Below, in pieces: positions 35,603 through 58,612 of a stretch of DNA of 64,000 nucleotides (the stretch's first letter is position 1; each line of letters starts with the position of its first letter). The DNA is from Caballeronia sp. SL2Y3 (GTDB taxonomy: Bacteria; Pseudomonadota; Gammaproteobacteria; Burkholderiales; Burkholderiaceae), in NCBI RefSeq assembly GCF_022879575.1, contig NZ_CP084263.1, positions 372,001 through 436,000 on the forward strand. Direction: 5' to 3'. The notes beneath the pieces are model-generated. The model ran no database searches and was not told where the DNA came from. It worked only from the letters and a program-made list of their open reading frames with translations. Position numbers and translations under genes: made by a program.

Positions 35603-35603
35603 G

Positions 35604-37732: not shown

Positions 37733-37884
37733 GCGCTCGCTTGCCTGATATCTGCCGGAAATGACGATTCCATACGACGGAGTTAACGGCTCGACGCAGC
37801 GAATGCTGAAGGGTGCGTCGAACCGCGATGCGCCGCCCGGCGGTACCATGTCCGTTTCGCCGCCCGGCTGTGCACGCCTGTCAC

Positions 37885-38802
37885 ATGGAACTGAAGCAGA
37901 TCCAGTACTTCATCGCGCTATTCGAGGAAGGCACCGTCACGCGGGCGGCCAAGCGCCTCAATATCGCGCAGCCTGCGTTGAGCATGCAGATCGCGAAGCT
38001 CGAAACCGAGCTGCGGCAGACGCTCTTTGAACGCGGGCCGCACGGCATGGCGCCGACCGAAGCCGCGCGCCTCATGTACCGGCTATATACGCCGATCATG
38101 CGCGATATCGGCCATGCGCGCGAGCAGTTGAGCCGGCGCGATGTCATCGTGACAGGGCGCGTGTCGCTCGGCATGGTGTCGTCGGAGGCGCAGAGCGTCT
38201 TGCCCGAATCGCTCGCGCGCTTCGACGCCCTCTTTCCGCAAGTGGAAGTGTCGGTGGCGGACGGCTTCAGCGCGCAACTCATCGACGCCGTGGAATCGGG
38301 CCGGCTCGATGCCGCGATCATCAACAAGCCGCGCGGCCGACTCGCGCTCGACGTCGAGCCGCTACTCGTGGAAGAGATGGTGCTCGTGACGAGCGCCGCG
38401 CACGGGCCGGATCTGCCGGAGACGATCGACCTCGTCGCGCAGTCCGATATCGAACTCGTGCTGCCCACGCGGCGCAACGGCCTGCGCGGCGCACTCGACG
38501 CCGCGCTCATGGCCGCCGATATCGTCATCAAGCCGAAGTTCGAAATCGACCTTCTCAGCACGATCGTGCAGTTCGTCGAGCAGAGCAGCGTCGCGACGAT
38601 TCTGCCGCGCGTCGTCGTGCAGTCGAAAGTGGACGAAGGGCGGCTGCGCGTGCGCACCATCGACAAGCCGCCCATCGTGCGTCACATCATTCAGGTCACG
38701 CATCCGAAGCGGCCCATCGGGCCGGCGGCGCAGGCGCTTATCGCCATCATCACCGAGGAGATCCGGCGCGTGACCACGGGCGCGCCGGCTCCTTCTGCAT
38801 GA
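37885..38802 (+). CDS. LysR regulator at the right-hand end of the furan cluster
   Basis: 305 residues, starting MELKQIQYFIALFEEGTVTR. HTH at ~16-55, effector domain from ~90. It is strongly similar throughout to the LysR at 51982 (same N-terminal 40 residues apart from a few conservative changes, same C-terminal HPKRPIG.AAQALIAII-type motif). In Cupriavidus basilensis hmf clusters two LysR genes (hmfR1/R2) occur; this is a candidate counterpart. It is convergent with the hydroxylase gene, 6 bp apart. Confidence 0.87.
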   Translation: MELKQIQYFIALFEEGTVTRAAKRLNIAQPALSMQIAKLETELRQTLFERGPHGMAPTEAARLMYRLYTPIMRDIGHAREQLSRRDVIVTGRVSLGMVSSEAQSVLPESLARFDALFPQVEVSVADGFSAQLIDAVESGRLDAAIINKPRGRLALDVEPLLVEEMVLVTSAAHGPDLPETIDLVAQSDIELVLPTRRNGLRGALDAALMAADIVIKPKFEIDLLSTIVQFVEQSSVATILPRVVVQSKVDEGRLRVRTIDKPPIVRHIIQVTHPKRPIGPAAQALIAIITEEIRRVTTGAPAPSA

Positions 38803-38808
38803 TGCGAA

Positions 38809-39507
38809 TCAGCCGCGGCGCGCAGTCGTTGGCACCGTGCGCGGCGCATCGCTGCGCGTTCCGAACAGCGTGTCGCAGATCGGGAAGGTGAGATTGAAGT
38901 TCTGCGTCGCCATCTGCTCGGGATCGTGATGCGTCACATGCAGGCGGCGCACCGTGTTGACGAACGGCAGGCGGTCGAGAAACGGACTGTCCGTGACGTG
39001 CGAAAGCGTGTGCAGCCCTTCGTACATCAGGTAGTACGCGGCCATCGTCAGGAGTGCGATGTATCCTGCATTGCGCGTGAACACGAAGCCGATCAGCAAC
39101 GCGAGCGGCGCGGCCGCGAGCACGAACGCGACCGGCGCGAACGGCGGAAACAGCAGCGCGCGCCAGTGCTTGTGGCCCTTGTACTCCAGCGTCACATGCG
39201 TGAAGAAGCGATGATGCACCGCGCAGTGCCGCTTGTAGACCATGCTGAAATACTTCGTCGGCCGATGCAGCACATAGCGGTGCGCGGCCCATTCCGCCCA
39301 GTTGCCGAAGAGAAAGAGCGGCACGACCGCGAGCCATTCCGCGAACGTGGGCGTGTGAAGCTGCATGGCGCAATACACGATCACCGCCGTCGTGAAGACG
39401 AGCGTAAAGCCCAGATGCATCTCTCCGCGATACCACTTCGGCGTCGCTTCCACGTATTCGTCGCGAAACTTGTACGAGCGCGCGCGAACGTCCTCGTCAT
39501 ATTTCAT
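38809..39507 (-). CDS. Sterol desaturase/fatty acid hydroxylase family membrane protein
   Basis: 232-residue membrane protein of the fatty-acid-hydroxylase superfamily. The di-iron ligand boxes are HRYVLH (about residue 77), HHRFFTH (about 97) and HVTHHDPEQ (about 190), separated by hydrophobic spans (LGFTLVFTTAVIVYCAMQL). It would catalyse O2-dependent hydroxylation or desaturation at the inner membrane. It is the last gene of the hmf-type transcription unit, 69 nt after the MFS gene. This gene is not part of the classical hmf set, so the link to furan oxidation is positional only. Confidence 0.82.
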   Translation of the reverse strand: MKYDEDVRARSYKFRDEYVEATPKWYRGEMHLGFTLVFTTAVIVYCAMQLHTPTFAEWLAVVPLFLFGNWAEWAAHRYVLHRPTKYFSMVYKRHCAVHHRFFTHVTLEYKGHKHWRALLFPPFAPVAFVLAAAPLALLIGFVFTRNAGYIALLTMAAYYLMYEGLHTLSHVTDSPFLDRLPFVNTVRRLHVTHHDPEQMATQNFNLTFPICDTLFGTRSDAPRTVPTTARRG

Positions 39508-39576
39508 GATGAGCGTCTCCGGTTTCTTGTGTTAGAGGATGCGGGCGCGTGCGTCGCGCGCCCGCAAGGACATGCT

Positions 39577-40953
39577 TCAGGACGGATTACGCGCCGCGCT
39601 GTTGTCCAGCTTGCCGAGCGTCTCCGGCACGACGAACGCGCCGACGAGGAAGATGATGCTGATCGCGCCGACGAAGATCGCGAGCGTCGACGGCAACTGG
39701 CTCGCGTCCTTCGCGACGAGCGAAACGAAGGTCGGCATCATCCCGCCGATGGCGAAGCCGATGTTCCACGAAAGGCCCGTTCCGGTCGCGCGGATTGCGG
39801 TCGGGAAGCGTTCGTTCAGGAAGATCAGAATCGGCGCATAGCCTGCGCTGCCGAGTGCGGAAAGCAGCACCGCGTAGACGCCGATCATCGTGATGCTCTG
39901 CGCCGTCGGCAACAACAGGAAAAGCCCCGGCAGCGCGACCAGCCGAATGAGGCCGATCCACACGAACGCGCTCTTGCGCCCGATGAACGTCGAGAGATGC
40001 CCCGCCGCGATCGATGCGATCACTACCGCGACGCTGCAGATCATCAGAATCGCGGCGGCCGCGCCGTTCGGCGCATGGCTCACGACCTTGAGGAACGTCG
40101 GCAGATAGCCCGAGGTGAGGTAATAGCCGCTGCCGCCGCCGATGGTGAGCAGCAGGTTCACGAACAGCACTCCGCGATACTCGCGCGAAAACAGCGTGCG
40201 AATGGGCGAGCGCACGACTTCGACGGGTCCCGTCTTGACTTGCGCCGCCGCCTTGGCCGCTTTCTCCGCCGCGAGCTTCTTCCAGAGCGGCGATTCTTCG
40301 AGGCTGTTGAACACGAAGAGCCCGAGCACCGAACTCACGATGCCGGTGAAGAACATGCAGCGCCAGCCCCACGCATCGAAGAGTTCGCCCGGAAAGATGG
40401 ACGACATCGCCAGATACGTGAGCGAGGCGAGCAACGCCCCGAGGCCCGCGCCGCCGCCGCCGATCAGCCCCGACACCGCGCCGCGATACTTCGGCGCGAC
40501 CGATTCGGTGCCGATGGTATGCGTCGATGCCACCACGCCGCCGACGAACACGCCCTGCACGAGACGCAGCAGCAGGAACAGGATCGGCGCGACGAGGCCC
40601 GCCTGCGCGACGGTCGGCAGCACGCCGAACGCCGCCGTCGAGATGCCGACGCCGACCACCGCGAAGATCATCGCGCCCTTGCGGCCGTGACGGTCCGCGT
40701 ACGAGCCGAAGAGCGCCGAGCCGAGCGGACGCATGAGCAGCGTCACCGCGAACGACGCATAGACTGCCGCGAGCGACAGCATCGCGTGTTCGGAGGGGAA
40801 GAAGAGACGCCCGACCACCGGCGCGACGTACAACAACACGAAGAGGTCGAACAGATCGAGCGCCCAGCCCATGCACGAGGCCACCACCGCGCCCATGATC
40901 TGCCGCTGATTCACCGGAAGCGCGGCGGCCCCGTCTTGTGCAGCTACGGACAT
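39577..40953 (-). CDS. MFS transporter of the furan cluster
   Basis: 458-residue, 12-TM major facilitator, metabolite:H+ symporter type. Signatures: MGWALDLFDLFVLLYVAPVV in TM1, loop 2-3 motif GSYADRHGRKGAM, and RLVQGVFVGGVVASTHT. The start MSVAAQDGAA at 40953 is preceded by GGAGATAC. HmfT-type MFS transporters accompany hmf genes and this one lies 110 nt after hmfH in the same direction, so it probably imports furanic or aromatic acids (inference). Confidence 0.87.
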   Translation of the reverse strand: MSVAAQDGAAALPVNQRQIMGAVVASCMGWALDLFDLFVLLYVAPVVGRLFFPSEHAMLSLAAVYASFAVTLLMRPLGSALFGSYADRHGRKGAMIFAVVGVGISTAAFGVLPTVAQAGLVAPILFLLLRLVQGVFVGGVVASTHTIGTESVAPKYRGAVSGLIGGGGAGLGALLASLTYLAMSSIFPGELFDAWGWRCMFFTGIVSSVLGLFVFNSLEESPLWKKLAAEKAAKAAAQVKTGPVEVVRSPIRTLFSREYRGVLFVNLLLTIGGGSGYYLTSGYLPTFLKVVSHAPNGAAAAILMICSVAVVIASIAAGHLSTFIGRKSAFVWIGLIRLVALPGLFLLLPTAQSITMIGVYAVLLSALGSAGYAPILIFLNERFPTAIRATGTGLSWNIGFAIGGMMPTFVSLVAKDASQLPSTLAIFVGAISIIFLVGAFVVPETLGKLDNSAARNPS

Positions 40954-41063
40954 GTGTATCTCCTGGTTTGTCACTGGGCGGTCTTTCGATCGCCCCGGTT
41001 TCGCAGGCACGTTTCTTATTGCGTGCTCTTGTCGAGGTTAAAAAAATCGTTATTGAATAATCG

Positions 41064-42803
41064 TTAGTGGGCGGCGGCGAGCGGCGGCGAACCCGAGACG
41101 TCGAGTTCCGCGCGTTCGCGCCGCGCCGCGACCATCGCGTCGGCGATCTTCTCGGCGATCATGATGGTCGGTATGTTCGTATTGGCCGATGGCAGCTTCG
41201 GCATCAGCGATGCATCCACCACGCGCAAGCCTCGCGCGCCATGCACGCGCCCTTGGCCGTCCGTGACGGCATCGCGGTCGTTTGCGCCGCCCATGCGGCA
41301 GGTGCCGCTCGCGTGCCACACGCCGAACACGTTCGCGCGAATGAAGTCCGCGAGCGCGCGGTCGTCGGCGAGCAGCGCGTTCATCTTCAGGCCGCGCGTG
41401 AAGAAGCGTTCGATCAGCATCCGGCGCACGGGCGCAGGCGTGTCCAGCAGAATCCCGAGCGCGGACGTGAGAAGCGCGTTGCCCTCGCCGACCTGGCTCA
41501 ACGCCTTCACGCGCGGCGAGAACGCCGCCGGAAAGAAGTCGCGTCCATCACGGCTCAGACCCGACGCTTCGACGATGCGCGCCAGCATCCGCACGCCGAC
41601 AGCGAGCCGCTCTACATCGCGTTCGTCGTCGAGCAGATTGAGATCGACGCGCGGCGCGGCGGCGGCATCGGCGGAAAGGAGCTGCACGCGGCCACGCGAA
41701 TACGGCCGGTTGCACCACAGAAAGAACAGCCCGAGCCGGTTGCCGAGCGCATGCCATGCGGCGCGTGTCGCGCTCGACAGATACAGGTCCGACTCGTCGC
41801 AGCCCGCGACGCCCGAACTCAGGCGCGCAGCCATCATGCTGGCGCGGCGTCGCGTAAGCGGCATGCGAAAGCGCGGCTCCAGGAAATGACAGAACGTGAG
41901 CGACGGATGATCCTGCAGATTGCGTCCGACGCCCGGCAGGTTCACCGCGCACGTAATGCCGAGCGCCGCGAGTTCGCGCGCATCGCCGATGCCGGCGCGC
42001 ATCAGAAGCGCAGGCGATTGCAGCGCGCCCGCGCTCAGAATCACTTCGCCCGCATCGAAGCGCAGGCGCTCGCCGTCTTCGTCCACCGCGATCACGCCGC
42101 GCGCGGTCGCGCCTTGCATCACGATCCGCTCGACGCGCAGCTTCGAATACACCCTGAGATTGGGGCGCTTGCGCGTCGCGTCGTCCAGATAGGCGATGGC
42201 CGTGGACACGCGCTTGTCGTCCTCGTTCGAAAACGCGCCGGGAAAGAAGCCGTCGCCGAACTCGCCGTTTTGATCCTTCAGTTCCGCGACGCCCTGCGCG
42301 CGCAAGCCCTTGCCGAACGCATGACAGAACGCGGGCCAGTCCTTCGGCATGATGCGGCGGATCGGCACGGGGCCGTCGCCGCCGTGCAGTTCGCCGCCGG
42401 GAAAGTCGAGGTCGCGCTCCAGCTTGCGGAAGTACGGCAGCACGTCGCGCCACGCCCAGCCATCGGCGCCTGTCGCGGCCCAGTCGTCGTAATCGCGCGG
42501 CAAGCCGCGATTAGCCGACTGCACGTTGATGCTCGACCCGCCGCCCATCACGCGGCCCTGCTCGTACACGCGCGGCGCGGCCTGCTTCGTGGCCTGCGCC
42601 TTCAGGTCCGGCCAGATGTACGTGTCGCCGCAAAACACCGGCATCGGATAGCTGTCGAGAATGGCCTCGGGCACCGCGCCCGGCGGCGTGTCCGCGCCCG
42701 CCTCGATCAACGCGACGCGCAGCGACGGCAACGCCGACAGCCGATGCGCAAGCACGCATCCCGCCGAACCGCCGCCTACGATCACGTAATCGAAGCGTCT
42801 CAT
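41064..42803 (-). CDS. hmfH: GMC oxidoreductase, HmfH-like HMF/furfuryl alcohol oxidase
   Basis: 579-residue FAD enzyme of the glucose-methanol-choline family. N-terminal dinucleotide motif FDYVIVGGGSAGCVLAHRLS, second GMC signature GEVILSAGALQSPALLM, and active-site His/Asn in GVWHASGTCRM (about residue 510) and LPSANTNIPT. HmfH oxidises 5-hydroxymethylfurfural and its alcohol/aldehyde intermediates to FDCA. Length agrees with HmfH of Cupriavidus basilensis (~570). Identity as HmfH rests mainly on cluster context; choline-dehydrogenase-like alternatives exist. Confidence 0.82.
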   Translation of the reverse strand: MRRFDYVIVGGGSAGCVLAHRLSALPSLRVALIEAGADTPPGAVPEAILDSYPMPVFCGDTYIWPDLKAQATKQAAPRVYEQGRVMGGGSSINVQSANRGLPRDYDDWAATGADGWAWRDVLPYFRKLERDLDFPGGELHGGDGPVPIRRIMPKDWPAFCHAFGKGLRAQGVAELKDQNGEFGDGFFPGAFSNEDDKRVSTAIAYLDDATRKRPNLRVYSKLRVERIVMQGATARGVIAVDEDGERLRFDAGEVILSAGALQSPALLMRAGIGDARELAALGITCAVNLPGVGRNLQDHPSLTFCHFLEPRFRMPLTRRRASMMAARLSSGVAGCDESDLYLSSATRAAWHALGNRLGLFFLWCNRPYSRGRVQLLSADAAAAPRVDLNLLDDERDVERLAVGVRMLARIVEASGLSRDGRDFFPAAFSPRVKALSQVGEGNALLTSALGILLDTPAPVRRMLIERFFTRGLKMNALLADDRALADFIRANVFGVWHASGTCRMGGANDRDAVTDGQGRVHGARGLRVVDASLMPKLPSANTNIPTIMIAEKIADAMVAARRERAELDVSGSPPLAAAH

Positions 42804-42826
42804 GTCGTCTTCCTTTGTCTGCGTTG

Positions 42827-43633
42827 TCAGAAGCCGCGGAACACCGGCTTGCGCTTGCCGTGGAACGCCTCGACGCCTTCGCGGAAGTCGTCCGACGAGC
42901 GCAGGCGGCTATAGCAATGCCCTTCCAGTTCGATCGCGATGGAAAGCGGCGCGTCTTCCGAATCGTTCAGGAGCTTCTTCGCGGTGCGCTGCGCGAGCGG
43001 CGAGAACGCGCGCAGTTCGTCGACGAGCGCGTCCGTCGCGGCCTCGAGTTCGGCATCCGGCACGCAGTCCACCGCGATGCCCCACTCGTACGCCTGCTTG
43101 CCGGGGATGCGGCGCGAGCGCATCACGATGTCCTTGGTCCGGCCGATGCCGACCATCGCCTGCAAGCGCGCCGAGCCGCCGGAGCCGGGAATCTGGCCGA
43201 GCTTCTGTTCGGGCAGCGCGTAGAACGTGGTGTCGGTGACGATGCGGAAGTCGCACGCGAGCGACAACTCGAAGCCCACGCCGAAGCAGAATCCGCGATT
43301 GGCCGCGATCACCGGCTTCGAGCAGCGCGCGGGCGCCGCGATGTTCCAGGCGAGCTTCGACACGTGTTCCGGCGATGCTTCGAGAAAGCCCTTGATGTCG
43401 CCGCCGCTCGAAAAGTGCTCGCCGTTCGCGCGCACGACGATCACGCGCACGCGCTCATCGTCGTCCAGTGCTTCGAATGCGGCGCGCAACTGATCGCGCG
43501 CGTGCATCGAAATGACGTTGAAGGGCGGCCGGTGCAGGATGATGTCGGCGCGTTCGCGTTCGGCGTCGATCTCGACCGAGAAGCCGTCGAGGTCTTGCAG
43601 CAGCGTCTGGCCGCGGTGGTTCAGGTCGGTCAT
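42827..43633 (-). CDS. hmfE: Enoyl-CoA hydratase family, HmfE-like 2-oxoglutaroyl-CoA hydrolase
   Basis: 268-residue crotonase-fold protein. The CoA/oxyanion elements are HRPPFNVISMHARDQL and ANGEHFSSGGDIKGF (about residues 66-80), then FCFGVGFELSLACDFRI and the second motif KLGQIPGSGGSARLQ. In the hmf pathway HmfE hydrolyses the CoA thioester after 5-hydroxyfuroyl-CoA tautomerises, releasing 2-oxoglutarate. Gene is 6 nt after hmfD and before hmfH, matching known gene content. Confidence 0.83.
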   Translation of the reverse strand: MTDLNHRGQTLLQDLDGFSVEIDAERERADIILHRPPFNVISMHARDQLRAAFEALDDDERVRVIVVRANGEHFSSGGDIKGFLEASPEHVSKLAWNIAAPARCSKPVIAANRGFCFGVGFELSLACDFRIVTDTTFYALPEQKLGQIPGSGGSARLQAMVGIGRTKDIVMRSRRIPGKQAYEWGIAVDCVPDAELEAATDALVDELRAFSPLAQRTAKKLLNDSEDAPLSIAIELEGHCYSRLRSSDDFREGVEAFHGKRKPVFRGF

Positions 43634-43639
43634 GTCGGG

Positions 43640-45220
43640 TTACTCCTTCGTGGTTTCTGTATGTTGTGCAAGGGGTGCGTCGTCGGGCACGTACTCGCCC
43701 GCTGAGAGCTTGCGGCGCAGGATCTTGCCGACCGGCGACTTCGGAATGTCATCGACGAACACGTAGTCGCGCGGGCGCTTGAAGTTGACGAGGTCGGACT
43801 GGCGGCACCACGCGTCGAGCCCTTCGGCATCCACATATTCGCGGCGCTTGATGAACGCGACCACGCGCTGGCCCCAGCGCTCGTCTTTCACGCCCGCGAC
43901 GGCGACTTCATCGACGGCGGGATGCAGCGAGAGCACCGACTCGATATCCACGGGCGAAATGTTCTCGCCGCCGCTGATGATCATGTCGTCCACGCGGCCG
44001 GTCACGTAGAGATCGCCGTCTGCGTCGAAATAGCCGGTGTCGCCGGTGAAGTACCAGCCGTCGCGCAAGGACTTCGCGTTCGCGTCCGGGCGATTCCAGT
44101 AGCCTTCGAATGCTTCGTCGCCGAGCAGGTCCGCGATGATCTGCCCTTCCTCGCCGACGGCCGCCGTCTCGTCGGGCGACACCGCGTCGAGCTTCACCAC
44201 GCGCAGCCGCGTGTTGATGCCCGCGCGCCCCGCGCTGCCCGGCTTCTTCGTCGCGTCCTGATCGATGCTGAACGTGTAGACCTCGGACGAGCCGTAGTGA
44301 TTGACGAACAGCTCCGGCTCGAACGCAGCCGAAAGGCGCTTGAGCAGACCGTCGTTCATCGGCGCGCCCGCGAAGCCGAGCTTTCTGACCGACGACGTAT
44401 CCGTGCTCGCGAAACCGCTGTCGGCGAGCAGGTCGTGATAGAGCGTCGGCACGAGATAAAGGCACGTCAGCCGGTGCCGTGCGATGGATTCGAGCGCGAG
44501 CTTCGCGTTCCAGCGGCGCACGCAGACGAAGACGCCATCGACGAGCGCCATCGCAAGCAGCGAGCGCACGCCCATCGTGTGATAGAGCGGCATCACGCCG
44601 AGCGTGCGTTCGCCGCGCCGGTACAGGTTCTGCGCGACGTGCGCAAGCGCGCCCGCGCGTTCGTGGCGGTGACGGCGCGGCACGCCCTTCGGCTTGCCGG
44701 TGGTGCCGGACGTGTACAGGATCAGTGAGATGTCGTCGGCGGTGGCTTGCGTGCTTTCGGTTGCGCAGTCGCCCGCGCATTCCGGCGTGCGCTCCGCGGT
44801 CAGCGCGTCGAATGTCAGCGTGCCGCCGGATACGTCGTCGAGCCCGATGCGCGGCAGGTTCTGCGCCGACGCGCTCTGCATCACGGCATCGGCGGAAACG
44901 GGTTCGTAGACGATGGCCTTCACGCCCGCATCCGTCACGCAGTATTCGACTTCCTCCGGCTTCGCGCGCCAGTTGAGCGGCACGATCACGATGCCCGCGA
45001 ACTGCCCCGCCCAATGCAGCGTCGCCATTTCCCAGCGATTTTGCAGCACGACGAGCAGCCGGTCGCCGCGTCGCACGCCGAGCGCGCGCAGGCCATCGGC
45101 GACATTCAGGATCACGCGATGCCACGCCGCGTACGTGAGTTGCAGATCACCGTCGACGAGCGCGAGCGCGTTCGGGCTGCGCTCGACGCTTTGCAGGAAA
45201 GTGCGGCCGAGATCAAGCAT
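43640..45220 (-). CDS. hmfD: AMP-forming acyl-CoA synthetase, HmfD-like 2-furoyl-CoA synthetase
   Basis: 526-residue ANL-family ligase converting 2-furoate, ATP and CoA to furoyl-CoA. P-loop LILYTSGTTGKPKGVPRR (about residues 165-182), adenylate motif GYWNRPDANAKS, hinge YFTGDTGYFDADGDLYVTGR, and catalytic Lys in PKSPVGKILRR near the C-terminus. It overlaps hmfC by 8 nt, showing tight coupling with the furoyl-CoA dehydrogenase genes. Substrate specificity assigned from context. Confidence 0.85.
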   Translation of the reverse strand: MLDLGRTFLQSVERSPNALALVDGDLQLTYAAWHRVILNVADGLRALGVRRGDRLLVVLQNRWEMATLHWAGQFAGIVIVPLNWRAKPEEVEYCVTDAGVKAIVYEPVSADAVMQSASAQNLPRIGLDDVSGGTLTFDALTAERTPECAGDCATESTQATADDISLILYTSGTTGKPKGVPRRHRHERAGALAHVAQNLYRRGERTLGVMPLYHTMGVRSLLAMALVDGVFVCVRRWNAKLALESIARHRLTCLYLVPTLYHDLLADSGFASTDTSSVRKLGFAGAPMNDGLLKRLSAAFEPELFVNHYGSSEVYTFSIDQDATKKPGSAGRAGINTRLRVVKLDAVSPDETAAVGEEGQIIADLLGDEAFEGYWNRPDANAKSLRDGWYFTGDTGYFDADGDLYVTGRVDDMIISGGENISPVDIESVLSLHPAVDEVAVAGVKDERWGQRVVAFIKRREYVDAEGLDAWCRQSDLVNFKRPRDYVFVDDIPKSPVGKILRRKLSAGEYVPDDAPLAQHTETTKE

Positions 45221-45749
45221 GTTCGGACTCCTTCGTATTTGCTTTTTCCTGACGGCGCGCGGCGACGTCGAGCACAGCCGCGACGATCGGCGTATAGCCC
45301 GTGCAGCGGCAGATGTGGCCCGACAGCATCTCGCGCACTTGCTCTTCGCTCGGGTCCGGTACGCGTTGCAGATAATCCGCGCACGACATCAGAATGCCCG
45401 CCGTGCAAAAGCCGCACTGCAACGCGTGATGGCGCTGAAAGGCCTGTTGCAAGTCGCCGAGCGTCTGCTCCGGCGCGAGGCCTTCGACGGTATCAATGCG
45501 CCGTCCGTCCGCCTGCACCGCGAGCATCAGGCACGACCGTGCCGCGATGCCGTCGACATGCACCGTGCATGCGCCGCAGACGCCGTGCTCGCAGCCCACG
45601 TGCGTGCCCGTCGCGCCGAGTTGGTGCCGGATGAAATCCGACAGCAGTTCGCGCGGCTCGCAATAGCCGCTGCGTTCGCGGCCGTTGAGCGTCAGCGTGA
45701 TGCGCTGCTCTTCGCCGTGCCGCATGATGTTGTCCGCCGTGTTGCTCAC
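45213..45749 (-). CDS. hmfC: [2Fe-2S] subunit of molybdenum furoyl-CoA dehydrogenase, HmfC-like
   Basis: 178-residue small subunit of the xanthine-dehydrogenase family. The plant-type cluster is CEHGVCGACTVHVDG with a fourth Cys in RSC (residues ~53-77); the second cluster is CGFCTAGILMSC and CRCTGYTP (~115-155). It passes electrons from Mo to FAD. The GTG at 45749 overlaps the hmfB stop (GTGA), favouring it over the internal ATG at 45725. Confidence 0.88.
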   Translation of the reverse strand: MSNTADNIMRHGEEQRITLTLNGRERSGYCEPRELLSDFIRHQLGATGTHVGCEHGVCGACTVHVDGIAARSCLMLAVQADGRRIDTVEGLAPEQTLGDLQQAFQRHHALQCGFCTAGILMSCADYLQRVPDPSEEQVREMLSGHICRCTGYTPIVAAVLDVAARRQEKANTKESEHA

Positions 45750-46567: not shown

Positions 46568-49500
46568 GCATGCCTCCTGAAACGGCCGAGCAGCCGCGCG
46601 ATCCATGATCGGCGCTCTGCCACCGGCTTGCCCGCCGCCTGCCGGCCGAGCGATTCGAACAATTGCCTGAGCACCACCTTCGCCGCGCCTTCGAGCATGC
46701 GTCCGCCGACCGCCGCGACCTTGCCCGAGACCTGCGCTTCGTAGTCGTACGCGAGGCGCGTGCCGTTACCGTGCGGCGTCAGTTCGACGAGACCGTTGCC
46801 GCGCGCGCTGCCGAGCGGCGAGATGCCCGCGCCCGCGAGACGAAGGCGGCGCGGCGCGTCGATCTCCGACAAGCCGATGCGCGCTTCGAAACGCGCCTTG
46901 ATGATGCCGACGCCCACGGTCACGTCCGCGCGATACTGGTTCGGCGCGGTCTCGTCCAGCGCGTGACAGCCGGGGATGACGTTGGCGAGCGCCTCCGGAT
47001 CGAGCAGCACGGCGAACACGGCTTCGGGCGTCGCGGGCAGATCGACCGTGCCTTGCGCCGTCAATGCCTTGCCGCCGCCCGGCGTCGCGGGCTTCGTCGC
47101 GGCTGCTTCGCGGTACTCGGGGCGCGACGGTTCTGGGTCGTCGATGCCGATCAGCGCCATCACCTTTTGCGGCGTGAGCGGCAGGCGAATGTCGTCGACG
47201 CCGAGCGCATCCGCCACCGCATTCGCGATGCACGGCGGCGTGCTCATGTTGTTGCCTTCGCCGAGCCCTTTCGCGCCGAGCGGCGTGAACGGCGACGGCG
47301 TTTCCAGATGAACGATCACCGGATCGGGCACTTCGCAGGTCGTCGGCATCAGATAGTCGGCGAGCGTGCCCGACTGGAAGCTGCCGTCCGCGCCGTAGCG
47401 GAACTCTTCCATCAGAGCAGCGCCGAGTCCTTGCGCGAACGCGCCGCGAATCTGGCCGTCCGCGAGCGCGGGATTCAGCAGCGTGCCGGCGTCGTGCGCG
47501 GTCACGTAGCGGTCGATGCGCACGCGTCCCGTCGCGCGATCCACTTCGACGGCACACATGTCGAACGCGAAGCCATACGCCGCCGATGTGTTGATGCGGT
47601 CCTCTTCATCGGGCGCGTCCATGTGCGGCGGCGACCAGAACACAGTCTCGCGCAAGCCTGGCTCTTCGCCTTCGGGCAGCAGCGCGGGCGCCCAGTGCGG
47701 CGCGTTGCTCGCCGCGCGCGCGAACGGCAGCGCGCGGTCTTCGGCATCCTTCGGGAAAATGCGCGCGCGCTCGAAGCGCACGTCATCCACTGCACAGCCG
47801 AACTGCTTCGCGAGAATGCGCGAGAGCTTGTCGCGCACGCGCGTCGCGGCGAGATGCACCGTGCCGGCCACCGCGCCCGCGAAGCGGCTCGAATAGTTGC
47901 CCGCCGCGACGGACCACGCGTCCTTGTGCGTGTCGAATTCCACGTTCACGACGATGTCCTTCGGGTCCAGCCCGAGCACATCCGCGACGACTTGCGCGCA
48001 CACCGTCATGTGGCCCTGTCCCGCCGGCGTCGATGCAATCGTGACGACCACGCCGCCGAGCAGATCCACGCTCACGGTCGCGCTGGCTATCGCGCCGTTC
48101 TTCGGGCCGGCCTTCTTGCGCGCGTCGGGCGGCATGACGGTCGTGATATAGCCCATGTTCGATACGGACGGTTCGACGATCGCCGCAAAGCCGATGCCGT
48201 AGAGACGCCCTTCCTTGCGGGCCGCGTCGCGCCGCGCGACGAGTTCTTCGTAGCCGCCCTCGACGTTCGAAAGGCGCAGCGCCTCCTGATAGTTGCCCGA
48301 ATCGAGCAGCGCGCCTGCTGCCGCGCGATACGGGAACGCATCGGCGGGAACGAAGTTGCGGCGGTACACGTCGAGCACATCGAGCTTCAGTTCGATGGCG
48401 ATGCGCTGAATCAGCCGCTCCAGCGCGAAATACACTTGCGGTCCGCCGAAGCCGCGCACGAGGCCGGTCGGCGTCTTGTTGGTCAGCACCACGCGGTTGC
48501 GCACGGCGAGGTTCGGGATCGCATATGCGCCCGTCAGACAGCCGTGCATCCGGTAGAAGGTCGCGGGCTCGGGCGCGCGCACGTAGCCGCCCACGTCTTC
48601 CAGTTGATCGTACGAGAGCGCGAGAATGCGGCCGTCGCTTTCCACGGCGGCTTCGAGGGTGGACAGGCGCGCGGTCGCGGAGGTCGCGGCGCTCAGGTGT
48701 TCGAGCCGGTCCTCGACCCATTTCACCGGCGCGCCCGCCTTGCGCGAGGCGAGGCACATCAAGACGACATACGGAAACACCGCCTGCTTCACGCCGAAGC
48801 TGCCGCCGGAATCGCGCGGAGCCTTATGACGCAGACGGTTCGCGGGAACGTTGAGCGCCATCGCCATCACGGCGTGCAGCGAGAACGGCCCCATGAAATT
48901 CGACGTGACGTCGTAGCCTTCGTCGCCCGACAGGTATTCGGCAATCACCACGCCGCATTCGATCGGCGCGCACGTATTGCGCGGATAGTGCGCGACGAGC
49001 TTCACGCGATGCGGCGCGCGCTCGAACGCGGCTTGCGGATCGCCATAGCTGAAATGCCGGTCGCTGATCACGTTGCTGCCGACGCGCTCGTGCAGTACGG
49101 GCGAATCGTCCTGCACCGCCTGATCGATGGACGTGACCGCATCGCGCAGCGCGTACTCGACCTTGATGAGGTCCATCGCATCTTCGGCAATGGCGCGCGA
49201 TTCCGCCATCACGACTGCAACCGGCTCGCCGACATAGCGCACGCGGTCCATCGCGAGCGCCCACTGCTCCATCGGCGACTTCACGCCGACGACGAACGGC
49301 CGCGACCACGGACGCAAGTCGTCGCGCGTGAGAATGGCGCGCACGCCGTGCAGCTTCGATGCGGCTTCGGTGTCGATGGACACGATATCCGCGTGCGCAT
49401 GCGGCGAGCGCAGAATCGCGGCTTGCAGCGTGCCCGGCTTCACGGCGAGGTCGTCGCCGTAGCGGCCTCGGCCCGTCAGAATCGCCGGGTCTTCGAAACG

Positions 49501-49596
49501 CGGCATCGGACGGCCGACGTGGCGCTCGGGCGCGGCGGCAGCGTTGTCAGCGACGCGTGCGTTGATATCCGCGAATCCTGTGTCGCGCTGGTTCAT
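46564..49596 (-). CDS. hmfA: Molybdopterin subunit of furoyl-CoA dehydrogenase fused to a CoxG-like domain, HmfA-like
   Basis: 1010-residue large subunit (usual XDH/CoxL large subunits are ~770-800). Residues ~25-815 are the molybdopterin hydroxylase: GRPMPRFEDPAILTGRGRY, VRGFGGPQVYFALERLIQRI, STPAGQGHMTVCAQ and the catalytic-Glu loop GAKGLGEGNNMSTPPC. Residues ~842-1010 are an SRPBCC/CoxG domain (GKALTAQGTVDLPATPEAVF; GLVELTPHGNGTRLAYDYEA) that in Cox systems is a separate membrane-recruitment protein. It hydroxylates 2-furoyl-CoA at C5 with water. Fusion would anchor the enzyme; see findings. Confidence 0.88.
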   Translation of the reverse strand: MNQRDTGFADINARVADNAAAAPERHVGRPMPRFEDPAILTGRGRYGDDLAVKPGTLQAAILRSPHAHADIVSIDTEAASKLHGVRAILTRDDLRPWSRPFVVGVKSPMEQWALAMDRVRYVGEPVAVVMAESRAIAEDAMDLIKVEYALRDAVTSIDQAVQDDSPVLHERVGSNVISDRHFSYGDPQAAFERAPHRVKLVAHYPRNTCAPIECGVVIAEYLSGDEGYDVTSNFMGPFSLHAVMAMALNVPANRLRHKAPRDSGGSFGVKQAVFPYVVLMCLASRKAGAPVKWVEDRLEHLSAATSATARLSTLEAAVESDGRILALSYDQLEDVGGYVRAPEPATFYRMHGCLTGAYAIPNLAVRNRVVLTNKTPTGLVRGFGGPQVYFALERLIQRIAIELKLDVLDVYRRNFVPADAFPYRAAAGALLDSGNYQEALRLSNVEGGYEELVARRDAARKEGRLYGIGFAAIVEPSVSNMGYITTVMPPDARKKAGPKNGAIASATVSVDLLGGVVVTIASTPAGQGHMTVCAQVVADVLGLDPKDIVVNVEFDTHKDAWSVAAGNYSSRFAGAVAGTVHLAATRVRDKLSRILAKQFGCAVDDVRFERARIFPKDAEDRALPFARAASNAPHWAPALLPEGEEPGLRETVFWSPPHMDAPDEEDRINTSAAYGFAFDMCAVEVDRATGRVRIDRYVTAHDAGTLLNPALADGQIRGAFAQGLGAALMEEFRYGADGSFQSGTLADYLMPTTCEVPDPVIVHLETPSPFTPLGAKGLGEGNNMSTPPCIANAVADALGVDDIRLPLTPQKVMALIGIDDPEPSRPEYREAAATKPATPGGGKALTAQGTVDLPATPEAVFAVLLDPEALANVIPGCHALDETAPNQYRADVTVGVGIIKARFEARIGLSEIDAPRRLRLAGAGISPLGSARGNGLVELTPHGNGTRLAYDYEAQVSGKVAAVGGRMLEGAAKVVLRQLFESLGRQAAGKPVAERRSWIARLLGRFRRHA

Positions 49597-49600
49597 GGCG

Positions 49601-50215
49601 TCACTCCTTGCTCTCGGCGCGGCTGCCGAATTCATCGGCGAGACCGCTCCAGCGGCGCGCGATCTCGCCGTGCTCGATGCCGAACAAATCCAGAATGCGC
49701 CCGACCGTGTGATCGACCACATCGTCGATGGTCTGCGGATGCGCGTAAAACGCGGGCACGGGCGGCATCACGATGGCGCCCATTTCGGTCGCGAGCGTCA
49801 TGTTGCGCAGATGCGCGAGGTTGAGCGGCGTCTCGCGCGCGACCAGCACGAGGCGGCGGCGCTCTTTGAGCATGACGTCGGCGGCGCGCGTCAGCAGGTT
49901 GTCGGCGAAGCCGTTCGCGACCGCGGCGAGCGTCTTCATCGAACACGGCGCAATCACCATGCCGTCGCTCAGGAACGAACCGCTCGCCACCGCCGCGCCG
50001 ATATCGCGCACGTTGTGCACGACGTCAGCCAGCGAATCGAGGTCGGCGCGCGCGAGGCCGAGTTCCTGCGCCGCCGTGACCGCGCCCGATGCCGAGACGA
50101 TCAGATGCGTCTCGTGCGTGCCGAGCCGGCGCAGCGCGGCGATGAGACGCACGCCGATGACCGCGCCGCTCGCGCCCGAGATGCCGACGACGATGCGCTT
50201 CTTTCGCTCAGCCAT
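49601..50215 (-). CDS. hmfG: UbiX-type flavin prenyltransferase, HmfG-like
   Basis: 204-residue UbiX/Pad1 enzyme that makes prenylated FMN for the partner UbiD decarboxylase. Motifs: GISGASGAVIGVRL (residues ~10-23), VIAPCSMKTLAAVANGFADN, LKERRRLVLVARETPLNLAH and MPPVPAFY, all canonical for UbiX. Start at 50215 overlaps the UbiD gene by 8 nt. Ends 4 nt before hmfA, so decarboxylase and dehydrogenase genes form one unit. Confidence 0.93.
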   Translation of the reverse strand: MAERKKRIVVGISGASGAVIGVRLIAALRRLGTHETHLIVSASGAVTAAQELGLARADLDSLADVVHNVRDIGAAVASGSFLSDGMVIAPCSMKTLAAVANGFADNLLTRAADVMLKERRRLVLVARETPLNLAHLRNMTLATEMGAIVMPPVPAFYAHPQTIDDVVDHTVGRILDLFGIEHGEIARRWSGLADEFGSRAESKE

Positions 50216-51701
50216 GATCGCGCGTGAGGTAGGCGTCGAGCGCGCTGTTGTCATTCGCGACGAGCGCATCCAGATCGACGGTGTCTTGTCCCGGAATCCG
50301 CACGCGCGTGAAGACGTGCGCCGGATAAACGACCGGGCGCGTGGCGTCGAGGCCCATCTTCGCGCTCACGCCTTGCAGATGCGCGGGCGCGTCGTCGGGC
50401 AGGCCGACCGTCGTCGAAGGATCGAGCGGCGAGCCTTGCGCGCCCGCCACCACGACGAGATCGCGGTCGGCCTGAAAGCGCGTGGCAATCGCCCATTCGA
50501 TTTCGGCGGGATCATGCACGTCCACATCGGTATCCACGACGACGACCTGCTTGATGTCGTAGTGCGCGCCGAACGCGCAGAGAATCACATTCTTCGCCTC
50601 GCCTTCGCGCTTCTTGTCGAACTGCACCCACAGGTGATAGCGGCACACGCCGCCCACCGAAAGATGCACGTCCTTGACCGAAGGATGGCTGCGCTGAAGA
50701 TGCGCGAGCAGCGTGGCTTCGCGCGGGATCCCGCCGAGCAGCAGATGCTCCATCTCGGCCGGCACGATCGTATGAAAGATCGGGTCGCGCCGATGCGTGA
50801 CCGCCGTCACTTCGATGACTTCGCGCGATTCCTTCGCGCTGTAGTACTTCGGGAACTCGCCGAAGGGGCCTTCGGGTTCGCGCACGTTCGGCAGAATGCG
50901 CCCTTCGATGATGATCTCCGCGAACGCCGGCACATGCACGCCGTTCGTCACGCACGACACGACAGGCAGCGGCGCGCCGTGCAGCGCGCCCGCGATTTCC
51001 AGCTCGTCGTGATCGATCGGCGTGATGGCTTGCGACGCGAGCATCGTCAGCGGGTCGACGCCGATGGCGACGGCCACGTCGAGCGCATCGCCCGCTTCTT
51101 CGGCGGCGCGCTGGAATGCGTACAGATGGCGCGGCAGCAGCAGAATCGCCATGCGGTCGCGGCCATGCACCTGAATACGGTTGATGGACACGTTCTGCAC
51201 GCCCGTGCGCGGATTGCGCGCGATCACGAGACCCGCCGTGATGTACGGGCCGTTGTCGTGCTCGCTGTGCGTGGGAATCGGCAATAGCGCGTGCAGGTCG
51301 ATGCCGTTCGTATGCACCACTTGCTGGCACGGCGCGTCGTCACGCTCGACCACTTTCGACGCGAGCGGCGCGGCGGCCGCAGCCGAAAATCGCGCGAGCA
51401 GCCCGGCTTCTTCGACGCCCATTGCTTCGGCAATCCATGCGCGCTTCGCCATGAAGCCGCTCACGACCGGCACCGAATGGCCGCCCGGACGCGTGAAGAA
51501 GGCTGCTCGCGTGCCGTCGAGCCGTTTGGCGATGGCCGCGAGTTCATGTTCGAGCGCGACGGGCTTGTCGATGGTCGCGACGCGTCCGGTCTTCGCGAGA
51601 TGCGCGAGCCAGTCGCGCAGCGAGAGCGAGGCCGCGTCAACGTCTTCGGGGGCCCACGCCAGTGAGGAAATGCCGTTCGTTGCGGCATCGCGTGTGTTCA
51701 T
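50208..51701 (-). CDS. hmfF: UbiD-type decarboxylase, HmfF-like 2,5-furandicarboxylate decarboxylase
   Basis: 497-residue prFMN-dependent decarboxylase. Conserved blocks: NVSINRIQVHGRDRMAILLL (about residues 170-190), EPEGPFGEFPKYY (about 290) and SVGGVCRYHLWVQFDKKREG. It converts FDCA to 2-furoate, with prFMN from HmfG. Start chosen at MNTRDAATNG; an ATG 4 codons upstream (51713) is possible. It is the first gene of the transcription unit and is divergent from the LysR at 51982. Confidence 0.9.
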   Translation of the reverse strand: MNTRDAATNGISSLAWAPEDVDAASLSLRDWLAHLAKTGRVATIDKPVALEHELAAIAKRLDGTRAAFFTRPGGHSVPVVSGFMAKRAWIAEAMGVEEAGLLARFSAAAAAPLASKVVERDDAPCQQVVHTNGIDLHALLPIPTHSEHDNGPYITAGLVIARNPRTGVQNVSINRIQVHGRDRMAILLLPRHLYAFQRAAEEAGDALDVAVAIGVDPLTMLASQAITPIDHDELEIAGALHGAPLPVVSCVTNGVHVPAFAEIIIEGRILPNVREPEGPFGEFPKYYSAKESREVIEVTAVTHRRDPIFHTIVPAEMEHLLLGGIPREATLLAHLQRSHPSVKDVHLSVGGVCRYHLWVQFDKKREGEAKNVILCAFGAHYDIKQVVVVDTDVDVHDPAEIEWAIATRFQADRDLVVVAGAQGSPLDPSTTVGLPDDAPAHLQGVSAKMGLDATRPVVYPAHVFTRVRIPGQDTVDLDALVANDNSALDAYLTRDHG

Positions 51702-51981
51702 TGGTGTCTCCATCCATTGCCTGCCGTTGATCGGAAATGCCGCAGCAAGCGCATGGTTGAAGCGTAGCGAGATCACTCCATAAGTTCTAATACTGTTTTC
51801 TGATGCGCCGAATCATCGCGTCTTATATCCGTGTTAGCCCCGATGACAGCGTTCTTACAGTTCCGTATCAATGGATGCCTTCGATACGCCGCCCAGTCGG
51901 GCGCAACTCGACGGGCCGCGTTTGACGCATAGTGATGACCCGGCGCAAACCCATTAGCGTTGCTGATGACGATGGGATCAG
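51702..51981. promoter_or_regulatory. Divergent promoter of hmfF operon and LysR gene
   Basis: A 280-bp region, AT-richer at 51,770-51,860. It must contain the start sites for the 10-gene furan operon (minus) and the LysR (plus). Several T-N11-A-like and ATAAG/CTTAT inverted elements can be drawn (for example cataagttctaatactg around 51,780), but no one site stands out enough to be called. Confidence 0.5.
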
Positions 51982-52905
51982 ATGGACCTCAAGCAAATCC
52001 AGTACTTCATCGCGCTTTTCGAAGACGGCTCCGTCACGCGTGCGGCCAAGCGCCTGAACATCGTGCAGCCCGCGTTGAGCATGCAGATCGCCAAGCTCGA
52101 AGACGAACTGCATCAGCAACTCTTCGAACGGGGCGCGCACGGCATGGCGCCGACCGCGGCGGGGCGGCTCATGTATCGCCTCTTTCTGCCGATCATGCGC
52201 GACCTCGCGCACGCGCGGCAGCAACTCGTGCAGCGCGATGAAGTCGTGACGGGACACGTGGGCATCGGGCTGATCGCGTCGGTCACGGAGAGCGTGCTCG
52301 CGGACTCGCTTTCGCGTTTTCATGCGCGCTATCCGGATGTCGAAGTGACCGTCGCCGATGGCTACAGCGCGACCTTCATCGACTGGGTGGCGGGCGGCCA
52401 ACTGGATGCGGCGATCATCAACAAGCCGCGCGCGCGCCTTTCGCTCGATTCGCGCCCGCTGCTCGACGAAGAGATGGTGCTCGCAACCAGCGCCGCGCAC
52501 GGCCCCGACTTGCCCCACGCGATAGAACTGGCGCAGTTGCCGGAGCTCGAACTCGTCTTGCCGACCAAGCGCCACGGTCTGCGCGGCGTGCTCGACAGCG
52601 CCGCGCAACACGAAGACGTGCTGCTCGCGCCGCGCTTCGAAATCGACGTGCTCTCCACCATTCTCAAGCTCGTCGAGCACACGCGCTTTGCGACGATTCT
52701 TCCGCGCATCGTGGTCGAACGCGCCGCGCGGCACGGCACCTTGCGCGCGTGCCCCATTCTCGCGCCGCGCATCGTGCGCCATATCGTGTGCGTGAGTCAT
52801 CCGCGCCGGCCGCTGAGCGCGGCAGCGGAGGCGCTCATCGCGATCATCGGCGACGAACTGCATCAAGCATCTAATATTTCGGTGTCCGATACATCACCCC
52901 AATGA
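51982..52905 (+). CDS. LysR regulator of the furan cluster (divergent from hmfF)
   Basis: 307 residues: MDLKQIQYFIALFEDGSVTR, HTH at ~16-55 (AAKRLNIVQPALSMQIAKLE), effector domain (VGIGLIASVTESVLADSL; EIDVLSTILKLVEHTRFATI). It sits divergently 280 bp from hmfF, the classical LysR arrangement, so it is the probable activator in response to furoate or furoyl-CoA. Paralogous to the LysR at 37885 on the other end of the cluster. The ALDH gene starts 13 nt after it, suggesting co-transcription. Confidence 0.88.
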   Translation: MDLKQIQYFIALFEDGSVTRAAKRLNIVQPALSMQIAKLEDELHQQLFERGAHGMAPTAAGRLMYRLFLPIMRDLAHARQQLVQRDEVVTGHVGIGLIASVTESVLADSLSRFHARYPDVEVTVADGYSATFIDWVAGGQLDAAIINKPRARLSLDSRPLLDEEMVLATSAAHGPDLPHAIELAQLPELELVLPTKRHGLRGVLDSAAQHEDVLLAPRFEIDVLSTILKLVEHTRFATILPRIVVERAARHGTLRACPILAPRIVRHIVCVSHPRRPLSAAAEALIAIIGDELHQASNISVSDTSPQ

Positions 52906-52918
52906 AGGAACGAACACG

Positions 52919-54358
52919 ATGAACGCATTGCACTGGATAGGCGGCGAATGGGCCGGCACGCCGACGCTCGACAGCATCGACCCCGCGACGGGCGAAGCCA
53001 TCGGCCAATACGCCGACGGCGGCGCGCACGAAGCGGACGCCGCCATTGCCGCCGCGCGCCATGTGTTCCACCGCACGACGTGGGCGCAGGACGCGCGTTT
53101 GCGCCAGGACGTGCTGCTTGCGTGGGCCGCGGCGCTCGAACAGCAGCGCGATGCGCTGGCGACGCTGCTCACGCGCGAAAATGGCAAGGCGATTGCGCAA
53201 TCGCGCGGCGAGATTGCGGGCGCCATATCGGAGGTGCGCTATTACGCGGGGCTCGCGCGGCATATCGCGGGTCACGTCCTCGAACCGGAACCCGGCACCA
53301 TTTCCACGATGCTGCGCGAAGCCGCGGGCGTCGCGGCGATCATCGTGCCGTGGAACGCGCCGGCCGTGCTGCTCGTGCGCTCGCTCGCGCCCGCGCTCGC
53401 GGCAGGCTGCACGGCGGTCGTGAAACCGGCCGCGCAGACCTCGCTCGTCACGGCCGCGATGCTGCGCTGCTTCGAGCACACCGCGTTGCCTAAGGGCGCA
53501 GTCAACCTCGTGAACGAACAGGCGCACGCCGCCAGTCAACGGCTCGCCGATTCGCACGACGTCGACGTGGTGAGCTTCACGGGATCGACCGCGACCGGCA
53601 AGAAGATCATGGCCGCGGCGGCGGACAGCATGAAGAAGCTCTCGCTCGAACTCGGCGGCAAGTCGTGCTGCCTCGTGTTCGACGATGCCGATATCGCCGC
53701 CATCGCGCCGCGTCTCGCGCGCGCCGCGACCATCATCTCCGGTCAGCAATGCACGGCCGCGCGTCGCGTGCTGGTGCATGCGTCGCGCGCGGCCGAAATG
53801 CGCGAGCATCTCGCGGGCGCGCTCGCCGCGCTGAAAGTGCGACCGGGCATCGAGCCGGCGACGGATATTGGCGCGCTCGTCGATGCGCCCACGCGCGATG
53901 CAGTGGACTGCACCATCGAACGCGCATGCGACATGGCGGATCGCGTGCTGTTGCGCGGCGCGCGCTCGGGCCACGCGTTCCTTTCGCCGACGCTGGTGGA
54001 GCATGACGACCCGAAGGCGTTCTTCTGCCAGGACGAAATCTTCGGGCCGTTCGTCACGCTGGAAGTATTCGAGAGCGAGCAGGAAGCCCTCGCGAAGGCC
54101 AATGACACGGTCTTCGGCCTGTCGGCCAGCGTATGGACGCACGACGGCCCGCGCGCCTTTCGCATGGCGCGTGCGCTGCGTAACGGCACGGTCTGGATCA
54201 ACGACCACAACAAGCTCTTCGCGGAAGCGGAAACCGGCGGATACCGGCAAAGCGGCCTCGGGCGTCTGCATGGCTACGACGCGCTCGCCGACTTCACCGA
54301 GATCAAGCATATCTGCATGCCGTCCGGCGTCGCGCAAGGTATCGCTCCGTTGCGCTGA
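52919..54358 (+). CDS. Aldehyde dehydrogenase family protein
   Basis: 479-residue NAD(P)-dependent ALDH. Catalytic Glu region LELGGKSCCLVFDDAD (about residues 243-258), catalytic Cys in ISGQQCTAARR (about 280), cofactor site FTGSTATGKKIM and a PWNAPA motif (PWNAPAVLLV). It follows the LysR of the furan cluster by 13 nt, so it may oxidise furfural or HMF to the acids (inference). The terminal GYRQSGLGRLHGYDALADFT is typical of the ALDH class acting on hydrophobic aldehydes. Confidence 0.92.
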   Translation: MNALHWIGGEWAGTPTLDSIDPATGEAIGQYADGGAHEADAAIAAARHVFHRTTWAQDARLRQDVLLAWAAALEQQRDALATLLTRENGKAIAQSRGEIAGAISEVRYYAGLARHIAGHVLEPEPGTISTMLREAAGVAAIIVPWNAPAVLLVRSLAPALAAGCTAVVKPAAQTSLVTAAMLRCFEHTALPKGAVNLVNEQAHAASQRLADSHDVDVVSFTGSTATGKKIMAAAADSMKKLSLELGGKSCCLVFDDADIAAIAPRLARAATIISGQQCTAARRVLVHASRAAEMREHLAGALAALKVRPGIEPATDIGALVDAPTRDAVDCTIERACDMADRVLLRGARSGHAFLSPTLVEHDDPKAFFCQDEIFGPFVTLEVFESEQEALAKANDTVFGLSASVWTHDGPRAFRMARALRNGTVWINDHNKLFAEAETGGYRQSGLGRLHGYDALADFTEIKHICMPSGVAQGIAPLR

Positions 54359-54718
54359 TACGTTACGGCAGCGAGCGGCGTTCGCGCGCCTGCCCGTTCG
54401 CCGTCACAGTGAAGCCCGGCAAAAGCAGCGATGCCCGCAGGCGATTCATCGCGAGACCGCCGGGAAACCGCGCCGGCCATTGCTCGCTCCAGCCGTACCG
54501 TTCGCGCAGAACCGTCATCGAGCTGTCGATACATTCGACGCCCACAGGACGATCCGATCCACCGCAAGGCGCGACCGCCTGCGCGCCTTCGCGATGACTC
54601 GGTTACGACGACAGCACGCAGCCGCGCCTAGACCAATCGCTTTGCGTCGCTGCCATCCCAAGGCGCGGCACGACGCTTGCGCGCAATGCTCTCGTATGCA
54701 TCCAGTGGGAGATTCGAA
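54359..54718. other. Intergenic gap after the aldehyde dehydrogenase
   Basis: 360 bp between the ALDH and the Gly-rich protein gene. Its only coding-like frame is on the minus strand (54363-54545, listed separately). The right half holds the promoter of the Gly-rich protein gene. Confidence 0.4.
54363..54545 (-). CDS. Possible small hypothetical protein or remnant
   Basis: A 60-residue frame starting with GTG (MGVECIDSSMTVLRERYGWS ... LLLPGFTVTANGQARERRSLP) with GC-rich third positions and natural amino-acid composition. The open frame continues upstream to about 54602 (PSHREGAQAVAPCGGSDRPV). No known domain. It could be a genuine small gene or the C-terminal end of a lost gene, antisense to no other gene. 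Confidence 0.3.
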   Translation of the reverse strand: MGVECIDSSMTVLRERYGWSEQWPARFPGGLAMNRLRASLLLPGFTVTANGQARERRSLP

Positions 54719-58545: not shown

Positions 58546-58576
58546 TGTCCGTCTCCTAACCAGTCTTATAGTTCAG

Positions 58577-58594: not shown

Positions 58595-58612
58595 TCGTCG
58601 TGCATGAGTGCT

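Follow-up and report, generated by a model that had tools for sequence, protein, structure and literature searches.

The 64,000-nucleotide stretch of Caballeronia sp. SL2Y3 analyzed here (the window; bases 372001-436000 of contig C4 in a 5.5-Mb genome of five contigs) very probably carries a complete hmf catabolic unit, predicted from its genes to convert 5-(hydroxymethyl)furfural (HMF) to 2-oxoglutarate and taken here to include its own regulation and a CoxG domain for membrane docking. Such furan compounds form from sugars in heated plant matter. Ten genes run on the minus strand from 51701 to 38809 in the order hmfF-G-A-B-C-D-E-H, followed by genes for a major facilitator superfamily (MFS) transporter and a membrane hydroxylase. 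Open reading frames, Pfam, and NCBIfam confirm the order, strand, and families that an earlier note on this DNA had given for the ten genes. That note had also equated the first eight with HmfF, G, A, B, C, D, E, and H, an identity that holds on matches to solved structures, Pfam domains, and the order of hmfABCDE, which lie in sequence on one strand in 65/80 related loci.

The upper part of the pathway is represented by HmfF (UbiD family), its UbiX partner, and the GMC oxidase HmfH, all of which are present. hmfF (50208-51701) encodes a predicted decarboxylase of 2,5-furandicarboxylic acid (FDCA) with a UbiD domain, a family that uses prenylated flavin mononucleotide (prenyl-FMN). In a PDB profile search, its best solved matches were 6h6v (1.5e-137), which we take to be from P. 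thermopropionicum, and 6h6x (2.1e-135), the next being 6.9e-60. It scored 462 bits to the HmfF structure, 206 to an indole-3-carboxylate enzyme, and ∼82 to PA0254, with protocatechuate and pyrrole decarboxylases far lower too. 6H6V is named as HmfF in PMC8988006. The histidine H297, described as key to furan specificity and replaced by Asn in PA0254 (PMC7976604), is kept: H319 of the window protein pairs in the alignment with the His that is residue 296 of the 6h6v chain, taken here as H297. The hmfG product (49601-50215) is a UbiX-family flavin prenyltransferase (NF004685, 276 bits versus a cut-off of 188). hmfH (41064-42803) encodes a putative oxidase of HMF and of its acid, 5-hydroxymethyl-2-furancarboxylic acid (HMFCA), whose best solved match is 4udp, followed by 6f97, named 5-(hydroxymethyl)furfural oxidase. 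Its WHASGT and ANTN stretches, in the GMC C-terminal domain, align to 4udp and contain the catalytic His and a nearby Asn, presumably also an active-site residue of HMF oxidase. The catalytic His of that enzyme is H467 (PMC6604932).

The lower part comprises the hmfABCDE families, present in that order. hmfA (46564-49596) encodes the molybdenum (Mo) subunit of furoyl-CoA dehydrogenase, a protein of 1010 residues with Pfam domains Ald_Xan_dh_C, MoCoBD_1/2, and COXG that also aligns with its homologues within hmf clusters (∼48 to 99% identical). We place its start at the ATG at 49596 rather than at 49722, where a longer, 1052-residue frame overlapping hmfG begins, because hmfG ends at 49601 and the relatives start there. 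The FAD subunit is encoded by hmfB (45746-46567; FAD_binding_5, CO_deh_flav_C) and the 2Fe-2S subunit by hmfC (45213-45749; Fer2, Fer2_2; GTG start assigned by analogy with strain M1242). They are followed by hmfD (43640-45220; AMP-binding, AMP-binding_C), for a putative AMP-forming furoyl-CoA synthetase, and hmfE (42827-43633; ECH_1), for a putative crotonase-fold 2-oxoglutaryl-CoA hydrolase and the conserved last gene of the ABCDE series. The genome holds no other close copy of HmfD, its 11 other matches being 26 to 33% identical except for two short pieces at 36 to 39%. Three XdhC_C proteins (molybdenum cofactor maturation) are encoded on another contig. From hmfF to hmfH, successive genes overlap or are separated by at most 23 bases: F/G overlap by 8 bases, G/A are 4 apart, A/B and B/C overlap by 4 each, C/D overlap by 8, and D/E and E/H are 6 and 23 apart. 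The MFS gene (39577-40953; Sugar_tr, MFS_1), whose start was set by analogy with M1242 although a GTG at 41010 is also possible, lies on that basis 110 bases beyond hmfH and 69 bases before the hydroxylase gene. Its product, closest among NCBIfam models to the metabolite:H+ symporters of TIGR00883 but below the cut-off, is probably a furan acid importer. On a plasmid of Caballeronia sp. M1242, the block is annotated gene for gene at 97 to 100% identity to the window, and the block is therefore not a chance assembly.

With substrates that we infer from these assignments, HmfH and the neighboring aldehyde dehydrogenase (52919-54358, plus strand; Aldedh; beside the LysR gene in relatives), whose likely role is furan aldehyde oxidation, would produce FDCA from HMF and its acid, and 2-furoate from furfural. 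Using prenyl-FMN supplied by HmfG, HmfF would decarboxylate FDCA to 2-furoate, from which HmfD would form 2-furoyl-CoA, the substrate for a C5 hydroxylation by HmfABC. The lactone would then open and hydrolysis would give 2-oxoglutarate, HmfE acting on the final thioester. Meanwhile, the CoxG domain fused to HmfA would dock the dehydrogenase to the inner membrane and help pass its electrons to quinone. The flux from HMF through FDCA, 2-furoate, and furoyl-CoA to 2-oxoglutarate that the earlier note predicted is thus well supported at the level of sequence. In Pseudomonas umsongensis, hmfF deletion abolished growth on HMF and FDCA, and growth on furoate was kept (PMC12064950).

A LysR-type regulator (51982-52905, plus strand; HTH_1, LysR_substrate), reading outward from a 280-base intergenic region shared with hmfF and adjoining hmfF in relatives too, probably controls the unit. 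Between the two genes lies a block (51780-51847) that stands out as conserved when 12 intergenic regions are aligned, its flanks having diverged. The inverted repeat TGAT-N7-ATCA, found at 51801 within the block, occurs in 19/20 divergent intergenic regions, though the spacers vary; only the Dinoroseobacter region (L017) lacks it. Four such words occur in the 64-kb window. A scan for the sigma-70 consensus gave no promoter anywhere in 37500-55000, and terminator-like sites were at background (14 versus a mean of 11.5). A single transcript is what we infer from gene spacing. A second, convergent LysR-type gene (37813-38802, plus strand; assigned by Pfam) closes the downstream end, the position that it also holds in relatives.

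Cluster layout was compared across the best 80 of 582 relatives from a genome scan, ranked by the fused HmfA query, with gene presence scored by tblastn at fixed identity limits; for one region annotated without features, the layout comes from tblastn only. Since no stretch extends farther than 10 kb outward or past the end of its contig, counts of the upper genes are lower bounds: hmfF was seen in at least 25/80 loci and hmfH in at least 17/80. F-G-A-B-C-D-E-H forms one run in 9/80, and the same layout also occurs on named plasmids of Caballeronia, Burkholderia, and Paraburkholderia. Bradyrhizobium and Xanthobacter (L072, L080, L093) have G-F-A-B-C-D-E-MFS-(aldehyde dehydrogenase)-H, a different order, so the two parts are joined in more than one way. 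Cupriavidus necator NH9 carries neighboring units, F-G-(binding protein)-H-hydroxylase and ABCDE-MFS. In the literature, hmfABCDE and hmfFGH are described as two clusters, the order of the first being highly conserved and that of the second much less so (PMC6604932). The joined FG-ABC-D-E-H arrangement, which the earlier note had set apart, is therefore not novel, being common to Caballeronia and Paraburkholderia relatives; judged by its genes, this is an ordinary complete hmf pathway whose layout is shared across its clade. HmfF itself is uncommon, being found in 5/200 genomes of the order (E 1e-100) and 61/398 of the family (1e-150). We also observed that hmfA of Bosea vestrisii (L021:18010-20935) is annotated as two overlapping frames, perhaps reflecting a frameshift.

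The C-terminal part of HmfA (46567-47127) consists of a CoxG domain, a linker, and a basic tail. The domain belongs to the CoxG family by both its Pfam COXG match (5e-21) and its fold: PDB profile searches returned 2pcs, 2ns9, and 8uds, and the same three rank first (2pcs at 8e-14) in a Foldseek search with the predicted structure of the domain (mean predicted local distance difference test [pLDDT], 88.9), which shows a separate C-terminal helix. The 8uds entry is M. smegmatis CoxG and lacks the C terminus that anchors the protein to lipid. CoxG and the Mo subunit share one open frame in 80/80 loci (with L099 and L065 truncated where their contigs end), a count biased upward because the loci were ranked by the fused query, which favors fused forms. 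The net charge is at least +2 in 75 of the 78 complete HmfA tails, which is at most suggestive of membrane recruitment, and the hydrophobic moment is modest, exceeding the 90th percentile of shuffles in ∼35% of the 78. On plasmid pHTA426 of Geobacillus kaustophilus, CoxG is instead a separate gene between hmfA and hmfB (L018:15418-15873). Its product is 34% identical to the HmfA domain and matches PDB 2pcs, labelled only "Conserved protein," letter for letter over residues 2-152. The same cluster also includes XdhC, nucleotidyltransferase, and molybdate permease genes and moaA, apparently a dedicated source of molybdenum cofactor.

The analogy with CO dehydrogenase makes it probable that furoyl-CoA dehydrogenase sits docked at the membrane and reduces quinone. 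In O. carboxidovorans, membrane recruitment of CO dehydrogenase is the role proposed for CoxG (PMC4240915), and CoxG has been described as a menaquinone-binding mediator of electron transfer (Kropp 2025, as cited in PMC13240472). In the part of the openly licensed literature that we surveyed, we met no statement that furoyl-CoA dehydrogenase docks to the membrane and reduces quinone. Several points, in addition to the bias in the fusion count, weigh against the unit as we read it. coxG mutants of O. carboxidovorans still use CO, with slower growth (PMC4240915), and in Sulfolobus CoxG anchors the dehydrogenase while quinone reduction occurs without it (PMC11962113); CoxG may therefore be an anchor only. 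The ten-gene run holds no extra gene for a lactone-opening enzyme. Finally, the 110-base gap before the MFS gene may point to a separate promoter for the last two genes. The data on CoxG mutants and Sulfolobus support the alternative that the fused domain is a membrane anchor or folding aid with no part in electron transfer, which we hold to be a serious contender, somewhat short of even chances. The menaquinone binding and electron transfer ascribed to CoxG speak against it, and, as either anchor or carrier, the domain would leave the enzyme at the membrane beside quinone.

The last gene of the run (38809-39507) encodes a membrane protein of the sterol desaturase (FA_hydroxylase) family, with PF04116 at 35.7 bits over a cut-off of 31 and its His boxes kept. 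His76, 81, 94, 98, 99, 166, 170, 190, 193, and 194 are conserved at 0.99 to 1.00 in 79 orthologous rows (with some genes represented twice) and at 1.00 in 18 distant rows, the di-iron His residues thus being kept alike in both groups. Two further residues mark the hmf-linked clade, His104 (1.00 versus 0.11 in distant homologs) and His114 (0.95 versus 0.00). Orthologs at ∼67 to 100% identity occur in 37/398 genomes of the family, its own included, and the other 66 matches listed are at most 40% identical. Regions, mostly of 19 kb, were retrieved for all 36 other orthologs and for 20 of the 66 distant matches (32 to 39% identity; among the latter, L187 spans only 7.6 kb and L177 starts near a contig end). 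hmf genes are present in 34/36 ortholog regions, and hmf enzyme genes in 0/20 distant-homolog regions. The association recurs in several layouts: E-H-MFS-hydroxylase, F-G-H-hydroxylase, hydroxylase beside the aldehyde dehydrogenase, and F-G with hydroxylase and no hmfH in the stretch. hmfF is present in 35/37 ortholog genomes and in 26/361 others, and only 1 of the 24 genomes with hmfE but without hmfF has the hydroxylase, counts that take no account of relatedness among the genomes. In that genome (G559), the gene adjoins hmfH, and its region (L164) shows no hmfF though it reaches >9 kb on that side. The other ortholog genome without hmfF (G423; L166) has only hmfH, MFS genes, a LysR gene, and the aldehyde dehydrogenase in the region, with both hmfF and hmfE below the limit in the genome. 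By this co-occurrence, the hydroxylase belongs to a clade tied to the hmf pathway. In one genome (G318; L169), we noted an ortholog split into two pieces in different frames.

The sterol desaturase family acts mostly on lipids, and an explanation to be taken seriously, if one we rate slightly less likely to be right than wrong, is that the gene has a role in lipid modification or stress and only happens to be located downstream. Consistent with this, two ortholog regions lack hmf genes (L144 and L153, both from genomes with hmfF on another contig), as does a stretch of a C. zhejiangensis plasmid that carries the hydroxylase and may be from the same species as one of them, and 26 of the 61 hmfF genomes have no hydroxylase. 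Against it stand the 34/36 and 0/20 counts across layouts, the distribution relative to hmfF and hmfE, and the position of the gene beside hmfH in both ortholog genomes without hmfF. A more specific proposal, which we consider rather unlikely as it stands, is that the protein is an enzyme of bacterial furan catabolism not assigned before, a membrane di-iron oxygenase hydroxylating a ring substituent, such as the methyl group of 5-methylfurfural or 5-methyl-2-furoate, to give HMFCA, alongside a furoyl-CoA dehydrogenase carrying a fused quinone shuttle. The HMFCA so made would pass through HmfH and HmfF to furoate. Sterol C4-methyl oxidase likewise attacks a methyl group, and such a role would account for the gene's association with the upper-pathway genes hmfF and hmfH and its near absence from clusters that have only the lower part. 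No PDB relative was retrieved up to E 10 with a profile built from 10 rows, and the predicted structure is poor (mean pLDDT, 66.9), with a weak best Foldseek match (E 0.05, Scs7p type). No hmf-cluster paper naming a membrane hydroxylase turned up among those considered, which were judged partly by titles and abstract openings.

That the Mo enzyme is instead a hydroxylase like those for CO, quinoline, or nicotinate, with the UbiD protein and ligase serving another heteroaromatic acid such as pyrrole- or indole-carboxylate, is highly improbable. The earlier note would have given up its reading had the genes fitted nicotinate, caffeine, or CO dehydrogenase systems better, and this bears on the data only in a formal sense: CO dehydrogenase and quinoline oxidoreductase are indeed the nearest solved Mo subunits, furoyl-CoA dehydrogenase is not among the 45 solved matches listed, and the ligase and crotonase families are broad. 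On the other side, the UbiD protein matches HmfF far better than the indole-3-carboxylate enzyme or PA0254 and has the His where PA0254 has Asn, and the GMC protein matches HMF oxidase. All NCBIfam Mo-hydroxylase models listed for HmfA fall below their cut-offs. Aerobic CO dehydrogenase was rejected, its large-subunit model, the best, reaching 452 bits against a cut-off of 950 and the active-site loop reading RGFGGPQ in place of the Cys motif of CO dehydrogenase. Quinoline, nicotinate, and pyrrole-carboxylate systems were rejected on the NCBIfam scores, the strength of the HmfF match, the solved Mo-subunit matches, and the loop sequence. Equally remote is the idea that the cluster mainly serves furfural and 2-furoate, the F, G, and H branch being vestigial or for another substituted furan; 53/80 loci show neither hmfF nor hmfH within their stretches, but in the window the three frames are open and conserved in relatives, hmfF and hmfG overlap, and the LysR-hmfF intergenic region contains a conserved block.

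Beyond the unit, 56204-61260 carries a sugar-acid type cluster with an altronate/galactarate dehydratase, a dihydrodipicolinate-synthase-like protein, an MFS protein, and an NAD-binding oxidoreductase; M1242 has an alpha-hydroxy acid oxidase between the last two, for which the window has no room. At 35225-36428, two small minus-strand frames without a Pfam match lie between GGDEF and GlpM genes, which are 78 bases apart in M1242. We take the end of the larger frame to resemble a polymorphic-toxin C terminus, with the smaller as its partner. Genes for a branched-chain amino acid exporter, AzlC and AzlD (20963-22638), fall in a low-GC patch, perhaps acquired (54.5% for 20001-24000 versus 61 to 68% elsewhere).

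Degradation by the hmf pathway clears biomass hydrolysates of inhibitors and also uses up FDCA, a monomer for plastics, and the cluster itself adds one member to the known set. The fused CoxG domain provides a structural rationale for possible electron delivery from furoyl-CoA dehydrogenase to quinone, and a structure of its separate counterpart, 2pcs, is already in the PDB. A second lead is the oxygenase-like membrane protein, which is specific to a clade and linked to HMF degradation; if it acted on methylfurans, the pathway would be widened to include them.

The unit shares its eight enzyme families, predicted pathway, and ABCDE order with Cupriavidus basilensis HMF14, compared here by published description, where the genes form two clusters (PMC6604932) rather than one run. 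P. umsongensis GO16 likewise has hmfABCDE and HmfF, the latter with deletion evidence, but PsfG and PsfA replace HmfH, and a putative hydrolase gene, hyd, is listed for which the window run has no extra gene (PMC12064950). The closest arrangements are on plasmids of Caballeronia sp. M1242, Burkholderia aenigmatica, and Paraburkholderia aromaticivorans, which have the same FGABCDEH-MFS order and divergent LysR gene; P. aromaticivorans differs in showing neither the membrane hydroxylase at that place nor an aldehyde dehydrogenase beside the LysR gene, and B. aenigmatica in having an XdhC gene adjoining the aldehyde dehydrogenase. The membrane hydroxylase shares its Pfam family and conserved His residues with Scs7p-type fatty acid hydroxylases and sterol desaturases, apart from the weak match of a poor model, and differs in its linkage to furan genes and in His104 and His114, which are rare or absent in distant homologs. 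CoxG of CO dehydrogenase systems has the same fold as the HmfA domain (8uds) and a partner enzyme of the same superfamily, but it is a separate small protein there, as in the Geobacillus hmf cluster, whereas in HmfA it is fused to the Mo subunit.

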